From the NCBI GenBank assembly GCA_001599595.1, contig BCHH01000009.1, forward strand, positions 1,924,503-1,988,502: a stretch of DNA of 64,000 nt, given 5' to 3'. The position numbers were made by a program, and so were the translations under genes. The notes under the pieces were generated by a model. It saw nothing but the letters and a program-made list of their open reading frames with translations, ran no database searches and was not told the DNA's origin. This document shows, piece after piece, positions 47,598-51,739 of the stretch. This DNA is from Beverwykella pulmonaria. Its lineage: Eukaryota > Ascomycota > Dothideomycetes > Pleosporales > Melanommataceae. The stretch's first letter is position 1. Every line of letters begins with the position of its first letter.

Positions 47598-48856
47598 TCA
47601 CTCATCTCGTAGAGGGCAATCCCTTACGAAGTGGCCTTCTCCATTGCCTGGTCGTTCAATTATCGTCAACAGATATCAATTCAATGTAAGCCAGGACCAA
47701 TTACATCTATAACAATGAGGATCATCGGCGTAATGACCAAATTCATCACCTGAATCTGTCAGTAAGAATGAATGGTATGAACACTTCTGGAAATTCACAT
47801 TTGTAGCAATGGAGATCATTAGCAAAATGCCCATGTTCGTCACCTGCGGCCTTTAGCAAGGGTTGAATACACCAAATCCTCTATAAACTTACATTTATAA
47901 TAGTGGGGGTCACTGGCATAGTGGCCAGGTTCATCACCTAGTATTGACAGTCAGCTCGAGTCTCGCCGTCCTTCCTTAGATACTGGAAGTGCATACACTT
48001 AAAGCAGACCACAGTATGTTGGCCTCTCTGTATTTCTCTGTTATTGTCACGTCTTCGCTTTGGTTGCGGCGTGGAAAGCGCTAGTGGTAGAGTATATGAT
48101 TCATCATTTAGAGACATCTCGATTTCTCTTCCCAGCCGATTGAATGCGCTTTTTTGTCCCTCTCCGTAGATAAGCGGCATATGGACATCGAAAATGCCTA
48201 GTAGCGAGTACGTCTTATCTTCTTCGAGTTTAGTTTGGCGGTGTTCTATCCACGACAACCGCTCATCGACGCTGAACTGAGATAACGAGGTTCATTGAAA
48301 GGCGGAATCAGCAATACTTGCTATCCCTTGAATTTTTCGGTTTAGAGACTTTTTTTCACCAAGCCTCTTGCCTTTTTTGGTGAAGAATTCAACCGAACTC
48401 GGTGCAAGAAGCTCCTGAAGCGTCCGATCCCGCTTGAACCATCGGCTATTTCGAAATTGAAGATTCTCATCGCGGTCGATTAACGTCGTCGTTGCTGTTG
48501 ATGGCCAAACTAGAAACACCCGACGAGTATACATAGCAACGAGCCGCATTTTGGTACCAACGAAACATGGATTTGATCGCCTGCGAAAGTTTGGTGTTAT
48601 TTGGCTTGTTGATGCAACAAGTGTCAACCCAAAAGTAGTGTAAACCGTCTTTTTTGGCTTGTTCTCCACAGAACAAAATCTTCGCATAGCCAGCCTTATC
48701 CTTGCCAGTGCCATTTGTTAGGTCTTCGAAGGTGACCTCCTCGGCGTCCGCTCCCCATGTGCGTGAAAGGATTGCATAGGTTGGGATTGGATCGTCGCCA
48801 ACTAAATCCTTAGTGAGACTAAGCGTGCTATTATTGCTGCATAGCAAAAGGCGCAT
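47598..48856 (-). pseudogene. HET-domain gene with C-terminal zinc-knuckle repeat exons; two lesions
   Basis: From the ATG at 48856 the frame reads MRLLLCSNNSTLSL, IPTYAILSRTWGADAEEVTF, YFWVDTCCINKPNNTKLSQA and YQNAARCYVYSSGVSS: a clear heterokaryon-incompatibility (HET) domain. Near 48480-48490 it must shift by one base to continue with FRNSRWFKRDRTLQELLAPS and KSLNRKIQGIASIADSAFQ, where an in-frame TGA (48292-48294) interrupts just before TSLSQFSVDERLSWIEHRQT. LEEDKTYSLLGIFDVHMPLI and IYGEGQKSAFNRL follow. The exon ends at 47997 in VVCFK plus the first base of a Cys codon. Three 45-nt exons (47937-47893, 47843-47799, 47749-47705) and a final exon (47647-47598) follow, all spliced in phase 1. 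HET proteins trigger cell death on non-self fusion. Lesions could be real or assembly errors. Confidence 0.75.
47705..47937 (-). repeat. Tandem 94-bp exon-intron units encoding zinc-knuckle-like repeats
   Basis: Three 45-bp exons start exactly 94 bp apart (47705, 47799, 47893), with 49-bp introns between them. In coding order they translate, with the shared split Cys codon, as CDEPGHYASDPHYYK, CDEHGHFANDLHCYK and CDEFGHYADDPHCYR. Each exon is preceded by CAG or TAG and followed by GTAAGT, GTGAAT or GTAATT. The final exon gives CNGEGHFVRDCPLRDE and a stop, a canonical C-x2-C-x4-H-x4-C knuckle together with the preceding CYR. In the three repeats the fourth ligand position reads Asp-(Pro/Leu)-His-(Cys/Tyr), so they are variants of the knuckle. 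Confidence 0.85.
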
Positions 48857-49936
48857 TGCTTCGCGCACTGACTGACGGTTAAGGGAGCAGGCGATGGGAA
48901 TTGGTTTGGCCTGCAAACGCGTAGAGAGAGAAGCACAGTCACCAGCTCGTCAGTTCAGACTATCATACACTGCTATTGGAATTAATGAGTATGCAGACAA
49001 ATGAAGATCACTAGACTATACCAAAGATTTGTGCTCAAAGCAAGATAGTTCAAGGGAATGGAGGTGGAAGCGATATGTAAAAGCAATTGGCAGTGCCAAG
49101 CTGGTGGTTGATGGATCTAATACTTTTATTTTACGTTTTTAACTTGTTACCAGCCAACTCTACATGCAGGAGGAATTTTGCGGCACATGTTGCTTTCTTT
49201 TTGTAGTTGTAAATATCTAGTAAGTACAAACTGCTGTATCTTTACAACCATAGTCATAGTCAAGGCTTTTTAGCAGTCAGCAAGCTGCATGATGCCGTTT
49301 TGTCTCACCGGAAGACTCGATAACCACATCAGCGACGTATACATAGGCAGCAGCTCAAGGAGCCAGAAAATTTAAGTGCTTCATACTCTAAAAGAAGACA
49401 TCGTATTCTTCTGTCCACAATCCGCATTGCTAAAAGGAGGTATAACTCGACTTACCGGCTAGTGCCTACTACTTCTTGCTGCTGTTTCTTTTTCGGCCCG
49501 CTTCTAGGGCCTATTGCAACTACGCTAGTCTGCCTCTTTGGTCCTATTAAGTCTGTGTCATCAGTCTGCACTGTTTTCGCATGTAGCCGAGGTTTACCAT
49601 CTTCGTGGTAGTGCGTAGGGCCATCGGAGTTTGAAGACGGAACATTATTGGAGCTTGGAGCTTGGGGCTGATCATGATTGGTTTAGCGTCCGAGATTTTG
49701 CTTGGCTTGTTTAGCCTCTTACATATACCCCTGTCCTCTTACTTAAAAAAGTTATATCATTTCATCTCACCACACGAAAGAAGATGGTTCCTTTTTCGTG
49801 CTGCATATTCTCTGAGCGCAGGTGGGCGATGCACGGGCCATCGTGTCATACCACCGCTCAGCCGCACATCAAACCTTCGACCTGATCCGTGATCCAGGTT
49901 CATTCACCTCATTCCATATCCGAGAAACAATCTACC
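48857..49936. other. Divergent intergenic region between HET and kinase genes
   Basis: About 1.1 kb between divergent genes. It is AT-rich on the HET side, with no gene seen. An in-frame ATG at 48916 would lengthen the HET product by 20 residues, but the start at 48856 fits better to usual HET N-termini. Confidence 0.45.
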
Positions 49937-51739
49937 ATGGCTAGTAGTTCGGTCTCTCATGAGATCGAGATATTTCCCCGGAAGGACAAACGGTTTGCTT
50001 TGCCGACTAATCTCGAGCTAGGAACGACGAACAAAGGGGACGAGCTGGATGACGAAACGAAGGATCTAGAAGATGATGACCACGAACTTAGTGACTCGTT
50101 TGATTCCAGTACAGAGTCAACCATCATTGATTCCCAACTGTCGATGAGTGTTCCAAAGGGTGGGTTTTTCTTCAATGACAATTATCAAAGTAGCACCGAG
50201 GCTTGTCGCAACTCACTGGGCAACGACGTCCGTCTCTTTGATACTCCTAGAAGTTATAAAACAGCATACTCGAGCCTTGAAAGCTACAAAACCGCCCCGC
50301 GCTCATACCCAATTCGAGAAAACCCGCAAACCGCACCCATCGAGTCACATCATACCGGTAACTCGAAGGATAGTGCACCCATAAAACAAATCGCTGCTGA
50401 TCAACGCAAAAATATTCCACCAACCAAGGCAGTTATCACGGGAGTGTCCAAAGGCGAAATTTCAGCGAAAACGCACCAACTGTTCTCTGCTACGGACAGT
50501 GGCAGTGCCCAGGTCTTCACTAGTGAATGGATTGATCATCTACAGTCTAGAGGCATACTTCTGGATCCATCCGAAGAACTTGATTGGTCTGGACGTGGCC
50601 AGCATGTTGAATATGAACCCAGCGATGAGGGCCAGATACCACTGACCGTGGAACAAGTTCTGGGTCATAGTGGAACCGCACTCGTAGAAAGCGTAATGTG
50701 CCGACGAATTCGCTTGGCACGTAAATTGATTAGATGCACCCGGAGAATGACCCAGAAGGACGCCATTACCGAGGTCGAACATTTGCAACGACTTCTGCAT
50801 TCACACATTGTCCGCGTTGTTGGAACCTATACTTTGAGGAAGAACCTAGCTATCTTATTGTATCCAGCCGCCAACTGGAACCTTGAAGAATTCATGGACG
50901 ACACATTAAATGACATGAATCGGGGAAGCGCACTCTCCCAGTATTCAAAAATTTGTGCATTGGCAAGTTTTTTCGGATGCCTCTCAAATGCCATTCACTT
51001 TATACACGAGCGCAACGTGAAACACATGGACATCAAGCCAAAAAATTTGCTGATTCGCTGGCTTGGGGGCCCATCGCAAGGATGTTTGGACCTTTATAAA
51101 ATATACGTTGCCGATTTTGGTATAGCTAGATCATATAAATCGGCTGCGGATTCCGAGACAGATTCTCCGACCTCTTTCACTCGAGCGTACGCAGCACCAG
51201 AGGTCGTCCTTCAGGACAAACGAGGTTTCAAAGCCGACATCTTCTCCCTGGGCTGCGTTTTCATGGAAATACTAGCTACTCTCGTTTCCACTCGTCTCAG
51301 TAATGAAAGAGTGAAGTTACAAAACGCTCGCTGCGACGCCACAGGCGACACCTCGTACCATGCCAATATCGATGCTGTTCTGGGATGGTTTGAAAGGTTA
51401 GAGGTGGAAGGCCTCCTCGACGATCACAGCTATTTGTCTGAAGGAGAGCCTCCCTACAACTCGTTTCGCACTATGCTCCTTAAGATTGGGCGCCTACAGC
51501 CATTACGCCAGCGTCCTAGCGGATGCGCGGATCTCCGTTTAAGCTGTTTACATTCCGTAAACGATTCTGATACCAGCGGTGTAACCTTACTTTCCAGTCT
51601 ACTTCCTCGGATGATTTGGAACTGTCCTGATGACAGACCTGGAGCCAGGCAGTTGATGGAATGCACAGCATCACTTCAGTGTCCCAAGTGTAACAATGGC
51701 CCTGAGGCTTTTGAGGCTGCCAAACTAGGTTCAAGCTAA
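49937..51739 (+). CDS. Protein kinase-fold protein with long N-terminal region
   Basis: Single exon of 600 residues. Residues 1-200 are disordered and acidic. LDWSGRGQHVEYEP introduces the kinase domain from about residue 215. K263 (RLARKLIRC) is the probable ATP lysine; H363-M364-D365 in VKHMDIKPKNLLI replaces HRD but keeps the catalytic Asp; D393-F394-G395 is DFG, followed by RAYAAPEVVLQ and ADIFSLGCVFMEIL. The glycine-rich loop is degenerate (VLGHSGTALVES). It is related to the kinase at 38546-39657, sharing DWSxxGRGxHVE, an ILLxP-xxxxLxxFMDD segment and the long insert before the catalytic loop. I start at 49937 (CTACCATGG). Substrate and pathway are unknown; activity may be weak. Confidence 0.8.
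   Translation: MASSSVSHEIEIFPRKDKRFALPTNLELGTTNKGDELDDETKDLEDDDHELSDSFDSSTESTIIDSQLSMSVPKGGFFFNDNYQSSTEACRNSLGNDVRLFDTPRSYKTAYSSLESYKTAPRSYPIRENPQTAPIESHHTGNSKDSAPIKQIAADQRKNIPPTKAVITGVSKGEISAKTHQLFSATDSGSAQVFTSEWIDHLQSRGILLDPSEELDWSGRGQHVEYEPSDEGQIPLTVEQVLGHSGTALVESVMCRRIRLARKLIRCTRRMTQKDAITEVEHLQRLLHSHIVRVVGTYTLRKNLAILLYPAANWNLEEFMDDTLNDMNRGSALSQYSKICALASFFGCLSNAIHFIHERNVKHMDIKPKNLLIRWLGGPSQGCLDLYKIYVADFGIARSYKSAADSETDSPTSFTRAYAAPEVVLQDKRGFKADIFSLGCVFMEILATLVSTRLSNERVKLQNARCDATGDTSYHANIDAVLGWFERLEVEGLLDDHSYLSEGEPPYNSFRTMLLKIGRLQPLRQRPSGCADLRLSCLHSVNDSDTSGVTLLSSLLPRMIWNCPDDRPGARQLMECTASLQCPKCNNGPEAFEAAKLGSS

Follow-up and report, generated by a model that had tools for sequence, protein, structure and literature searches.

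A probable HET pseudogene with a four-unit zinc-knuckle tail laid out in one-unit 45-nt exons in Beverwykella pulmonaria

The HET domain defines a large fungal family of death effectors. Passages of PMC10890737 and PMC12881547 relate HET to TIR and report that it induces cell death. In the BH protein of Podospora anserina (het-B), as described in part of PMC10890737, specificity is set by a lectin fold that is attached to HET at the C-terminus. The gene described here resembles BH in its plan, HET with a C-terminal binding domain and neither NACHT nor NB-ARC, but zinc knuckles stand in place of the lectin fold; BH moreover has an additional HET-associated domain between the two parts, and the same passages describe no one-unit exons. 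The HNWD proteins of Podospora (HET-NACHT-WD40; parts of PMC4986451 and PMC12881547) are NLRs of the same HET family. Fungal NLR repeats combine, in the part of PMC4986451 that deals with them, high internal identity and polymorphism in number; by contrast, our gene displays no NACHT, no highly alike repeats and, in the tails seen, a constant number of units.

A passage of PMC5658179 mentions, as a personal observation, an NLR of P. anserina whose C-terminal domain is a DNA-binding zinc finger. In the open-licence PMC literature we met no paper in which HET or PNP_UDP is joined to zinc knuckles: the passages available from PMC9815663, PMC4986451, PMC10890737, PMC10197012 and PMC12881547 do not bring zinc together with HET or PNP_UDP, nor CCHC in the case of the first four. 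HET and CCHC or knuckle genes are mentioned apart in passages of PMC13412767, PMC11051394 and PMC6652019 as well as in the CCHC passage of PMC10684091, and are listed separately in the relevant part of PMC10993733. UniRef already names the Xylaria protein presented below CCHC-type, so that the HET-knuckle combination has been annotated by machine.

The window, i.e. the whole stretch of 64,000 nucleotides analysed (C9:1924503-1988502), belongs to a genome searched as 45.6 Mb in 31 contigs. On its minus strand the end frame of a HET domain leads into a basic linker, then into a tail of three 45-nt exons and a CCHC last exon (Table 1). An earlier note on this DNA had described the three exons with a period of 94 nt, workable splice sites and phase 1 breaks inside Cys codons, and the coordinates confirm it: the start-to-start spacing of 94 nt is 45 + 49 and occurs twice, the outer introns differing (59 and 57 nt). 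The four introns have GT..AG borders, and each breaks the second Cys of a CxxC in phase 1, as T|GT three times and as T|GC at the last exon; the exon upstream of the tail ends at 47997 in the matching phase. The CxxC that precedes unit 2 has Tyr in place of its first Cys. The layout is read directly on the DNA, while the splicing of these exons we infer from spliced homologues.

Table 1. Predicted features of the HET-knuckle gene in the window (positions are those of the window).
Feature	Positions	Strand	Evidence or remark
HET domain, N-terminal part, 115 residues from first Met	48512..48856	-	PF06985 E 2.9e-9, residues 27-112
HET frame change, 16 nt between aligned frames	48463..48478	-	tblastn with own-genome paralogues; L004 has 5 residues there
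Remaining HET domain, second frame	48118..48462	-	paralogue alignment, open frames
In-frame TGA; Gly in displayed paralogues L003, L004, L006 (3/3)	48292..48294	-	tblastn
Basic linker leading into the first CxxC (..PKRRRDNNREIQRGQHTVVCFK, then base 1 of the second Cys codon)	47997..48117	-	
Intron 1, 59 nt, phase 1	47938..47996	-	
One-unit exon 1, 45 nt, codes DEPGHYASDPHYYK	47893..47937	-	Tyr against Cys in 4/4 relatives
Intron 2, 49 nt, phase 1	47844..47892	-	
One-unit exon 2, 45 nt, codes DEHGHFANDLHCYK	47799..47843	-	
Intron 3, 49 nt, phase 1	47750..47798	-	
One-unit exon 3, 45 nt, codes DEFGHYADDPHCYR	47705..47749	-	
Intron 4, 57 nt, phase 1	47648..47704	-	
Last exon, canonical CCHC ending (GEGHFVRDCPLRDE), stop TGA	47598..47647	-	

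Scoring proteins on the tail together with the final stretch of HET gave 198 matches at E <= 1e-5 among 332 candidates, 120 of them listed; scoring on the tail alone found nothing (1 candidate). HET and zf-CCHC come together in P0122 of the leotiomycete Scytalidium lignicola (53% identity over 97%; four zf-CCHC stretches by Pfam scan) and in P0125 of the sordariomycete Xylaria flabelliformis (45% over 99%; one stretch). P0121 (source code lgn, 192 residues, 59% over 97%) displays zf-CCHC (two stretches) and, by alignment, the HET end, and is a short frame from a 1202-base contig that may be cut. HET with the same four-unit tail is thus present in Scytalidium and Xylaria, and the tail with the HET end in P0121. 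P0123, P0124 and P0127 possess HET and the same linker, then stop a few codons past the first CxxC, as would, judging from the translations alone, unspliced frames running into the first intron; the endings C-M-C-F of P0123 and C-M-H-I of P0124 agree with a donor reading GTATG, like the one in the window. P0126 appears, by our count on its translation, to read across a 60-nt in-frame intron into the unit GHYASDPHCYKC and onward. The four run-through frames all fit introns at the Cys codon used in the window.

The spliced tail of the window matches zf-CCHC (PF00098) in four stretches (E 2.9e-21, 75 bits for a cut-off of 20.8). The three 45-nt exons share 32-33 of their 45 nt pairwise and the units 10-11 of 15 residues, with pS of 0.63, 0.82 and 0.90 against pN of 0.14-0.17 (Nei-Gojobori, 15 codons); the change between units is mostly synonymous and synonymous sites are near saturation. 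In the control frame +1, pS is below pN for two of the three pairs; the control frame +2 is partly similar to the true frame (pS 0.44-0.82, pN 0.15-0.27), and because of this resemblance the test is supportive of coding, not sharp. The two 49-nt introns are identical at 25 of 49 positions, and at 18 of 37 in their inner part, where shuffling gives a mean of 9.8 (SD 2.6). Altogether the zf-CCHC match, the synonymous bias and the spliced homologues go beyond chance and indicate that the tail is, or was, coding.

The canonical CCHC ending read in the last exon by the earlier note is borne out: the final unit fits CX2CX4HX4C in the window as in P0122 and P0125, the last unit of P0121 being without the His. 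Units 1-3 are built differently, the fourth Cys being found in none of 11 units from the four proteins and a His one place later in all 11. This linker-less pattern, C-x2-C-x4-H-x5-H, suggests a CCHH-like zinc site. Structure models lend no support to folded knuckles in units 1-3: for P0122 the HET domain is well modelled and these units have a pLDDT < 50 (few sequences cover the tail), and the model of P0121 is poor. No match at E <= 0.001 came out of a PDB fold search, in which a plant TIR chain stood at rank 42 with a meaningless E of 0.82. The nearest solved structures by sequence are weak matches (18 rows, E 0.0017-0.099), mostly retroviral nucleocapsid proteins and also Lin28.

The HET tree was built from 82 of 127 eligible rows with the tail columns removed, P0121 (short), rows of less than 200 residues and own-genome paralogues being excluded. 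The window copy forms a clade with P0123, P0124 and P0127 (100/97), which adjoins listed rows including the HET-NACHT proteins P0134, P0136 and P0143, a point in common with HNWD. P0122, P0126 and P0125 are placed elsewhere, and the well-supported branches force at least three changes. For P0123, P0124 and P0127, being scored as tailed means no more than possession of the linker and the first CxxC. A single clade of the seven tailed HET rows is rejected (AU p 1.9e-7), and leaving out P0125 with its long branch gives the same outcome (p 1.3e-117, a value that signifies rejection and nothing further). Linker and tail are alike across these clades, which leaves as readings an exchange of the tail or of the HET part, or repeated loss; as tail-less rows of the tree may be unspliced frames whose tail is unread, the tailed HETs, which do not form one clade, would reflect such an exchange or tails that were lost or simply unread.

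The description of a HET gene with a micro-exon tail stands as far as the one-unit phase 1-1 exons are concerned; the earlier note had missed that the HET part upstream is broken. The N-terminal piece passes PF06985 (37.9 bits for a cut-off of 22.5), and the reading frame is then not intact through the domain, because of the frame break and the in-frame TGA. An intron was considered at both places and rejected: the gap of 16 nt is too short for one, and the displayed paralogues align across the TGA with no gap. No NACHT or NB-ARC was found between HET and tail in a Pfam scan of the pieces, and a linker of about 40 residues connects HET directly to the tail. Conservation was assessed on the 91 HET columns that reach 93% or more in an alignment of 139 rows, 126 rows having enough columns. 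The window copy departs at 10 of 90 columns (rank 2 of 126, for a median of 1), and in the RGWTLQELLAP block its GW is among the residues changed; P0122, P0123, P0124, P0126 and P0127 are changed at none of the 91, P0125 at 8 (rank 3) and P0225 at 33. As P0125 also bears knuckles, such a departure alone is no proof of decay. The Cys after unit 1, Tyr in the window, is conserved in the four relatives showing the position (P0121, P0122, P0125 and P0126, the latter provided that its unit corresponds to unit 1). With the frame break, the TGA, the changed HET columns and the lost knuckle Cys, the window copy is probably a pseudogene; the HET-knuckle family is not a relic, since intact relatives exist.

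This genome contains 108 HET matches at E <= 0.001, some of which are fragments of a single gene. Searches of it for a further copy of the tail were negative. Of the seven matches to the tail protein at E <= 10, four fall on the locus and the others on L035, L037 and L038; the linker gave itself and nine weak matches (E 3.7e-4 to 0.82), those at C12:523891 and C2:908124 having no knuckle-like exons by motif; the tail DNA returned only itself, and the tail of P0121 three matches at the locus and L035. Among 59 knuckle matches (E <= 10), only that of the window lies less than 5 kb from a HET match, distances being taken by start coordinate and the next closest pairs lying at 7.7, 9.1 and 15.2 kb. 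A split tail elsewhere could be missed by these searches, since exons of 45 nt are hard to detect in six-frame searches and, for most HET matches, the flank downstream fell outside them.

Two PNP_UDP genes of this genome carry knuckle-like tails. L035 (C9:1329433-1329585) combines PNP_UDP_1, DUF3597 and three zf-CCHC, with all knuckles in one exon; its fourth unit is without one Cys and two of its units are identical. For a recent change of repeats L035 is a better candidate than the window tail. L072 (C2:3198318-3198574 with its flanks) is open over 438 residues when spliced, with a match to PNP_UDP_1 (E 2e-11) and, by eye, three CX2CX4HX4C motifs; Pfam finds no zf-CCHC in the spliced protein at E <= 0.01, which speaks against naming its end a knuckle tail. 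Its introns (53 and 55 nt) interrupt in phase 1 the second Cys codon of a CxxC, with a 57-nt phase 1-1 exon between them, and its last exon starts T|GC like that of the window. Related PNP_UDP proteins are P0005 of Mytilinidion resinicola (zf-CCHC listed) and P0010 of a Phaeosphaeriaceae (tail by eye), and P0012 and P0033 seem, in our reading, to be frames that run on into an intron at this Cys codon. In P0005, repeats of the kind ITEEVVKAAAGN continue past PNP_UDP and the knuckles. L035, L072, P0005 and P0010 thus resemble the HET-knuckle plan by an NLR-type effector domain with C-terminal knuckles or knuckle-like motifs, L072 also by intron codon and phase and by its phase 1-1 exon; they differ by PNP_UDP instead of HET and by the canonical spacing with linkers, and L035 by its single knuckle exon.

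The same intron site also occurs outside effector genes. On C5, a knuckle gene that we take by its look to be CNBP/Gis2-like has two phase 1 introns in the second Cys codon of a CxxC, as the window has, but it differs by several knuckles per exon, by linkers and by the absence of any effector domain seen; in another C5 gene, presumably SF1-like by its look, an intron acceptor lies at the same codon and phase. In the knuckle gene at C9:407 kb the break falls in the Gly codon that precedes the His, and a C15 knuckle gene is split differently. The site is thus not special to HET, since a PNP_UDP gene and two ordinary knuckle genes of this genome have it too; it would be explained equally if ordinary knuckle exons had been captured or if introns had been gained at T|GT more than once.

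We consider it probable, though far from assured, that the window holds the decayed copy of a gene made of HET, a basic linker and a four-unit zinc-knuckle tail in one-unit 45-nt phase 1-1 exons, this judgement covering also the working proposal that follows. For the intact relatives we propose that HET acts as the cell-death effector and the tail as its sensor or tether, as the lectin fold of BH suggests by analogy. Binding of a ligand by the tail, either single-stranded RNA or a protein partner, might gather the HET domains and switch them on, without, as in BH, any NACHT or NB-ARC switch in between. The equal phase on both sides could allow the tail to be joined to other effector genes with the frame unbroken, in keeping with the fact that HET domains from several clades are followed by it. 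The window copy itself probably no longer works.

This reading has to be weighed against others, two of which concern the state of the window copy. The tail might still be a gene by itself, giving from a start after the TGA a short protein with the HET end, the linker and the knuckles: the spliced frame is indeed open from behind the TGA to the last stop (159 residues), but the lost tail Cys, kept wherever relatives show it, and the absence of the short form from all six intact relatives examined (P0122, P0123, P0124, P0125, P0126 and P0127) render this rather improbable; P0121 would be such a short frame, yet its contig may be cut. The two lesions might also be errors of sequencing or assembly in an intact gene. 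The tail exons and splice sites are intact and the assembly method is unstated; on the other hand the changed HET columns with the GW of the RGWTLQELLAP block and the missing Cys do not fit an intact gene, and one of the lesions is a stop codon and not an indel, so that we hold errors to be an improbable cause.

Two further alternatives to a decayed HET-knuckle gene with a conserved tail concern the exons. The earlier note saw in them an expandable recognition array, whose units would come and go through unequal crossing over, or be left out by alternative splicing, like the WD40, ANK or TPR repeats of fungal NLRs. Its arithmetic holds, as equal length and equal phase would make any gain, loss or skipping frame-neutral; the faint likeness of the 49-nt introns fits an ancient tandem duplication of exon plus intron. 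However, the number of CxxC units is four in each complete tail, namely that of the window, where the pair with Tyr is included, and, among the matches listed, those of P0121, P0122 and P0125, the last of which is longer in its third unit. Units also match by position across proteins: in a test on 11 units scored with BLOSUM62, which sets aside every last unit as well as unit 3 of P0125, 6 of 432 relabellings reach the observed mean, some of them trivial swaps, even if the gap in plain identity is small (9.9 of 15 at equal position, 9.5 within a protein, 9.1 otherwise). The likeness of the window units lies below the 85% used for expandable repeats in the part of PMC4986451 concerned and indicates no homogenisation. 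The units thus appear old and constant in number, the proposed variation by crossing over or splicing is not supported, there is no sign of an expanding array or of fast repeat-number change in the window copy, and we regard such an array as very improbable. The layout might otherwise be accidental, introns being often gained at T|GT in the second Cys of a CxxC with no special link to HET or to exon exchange. The CNBP/Gis2-like introns and the SF1-like acceptor agree with this; the knuckle genes of C9 and C15, split elsewhere, and the likeness of linker and tail across HET clades, which points to one tail passed on, argue against it, and we find an accident conceivable but unlikely.

Going beyond the decayed HET-knuckle gene, one may imagine a portable sensor module, with one knuckle per phase 1-1 exon, traded among death effectors (HET of several clades, PNP_UDP) and making non-NLR receptors for a nucleic acid or a knuckle-binding protein, for example of a mycovirus or retroelement, units 1-3 being linker-less CCHH-like sites; as a whole this is a tentative idea that we would not expect to hold. 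HET or PNP_UDP linked directly to a conserved knuckle tail is a concrete candidate, open to testing, for a protein that senses directly and needs no NLR switch; the equal-phase exons suggest a route for passing the tail between effectors. The window copy itself is of little weight here, since it looks degenerate.

Other frames of this genome drew our attention. L048 (C10:1631663-1631902) is a frame of 340 residues with three zf-CCHC behind an N-terminal part that Pfam does not recognise. L045, L053, L054, L059 and L064-L066 are short, near-alike one-knuckle frames (CYNCSKLGHF..NNCP), by their look remnants of retroelement Gag. In the window, upstream of the HET gene and on the opposite strand, positions 49886-51739 (+) hold an open frame of 617 residues, by its look a protein kinase.
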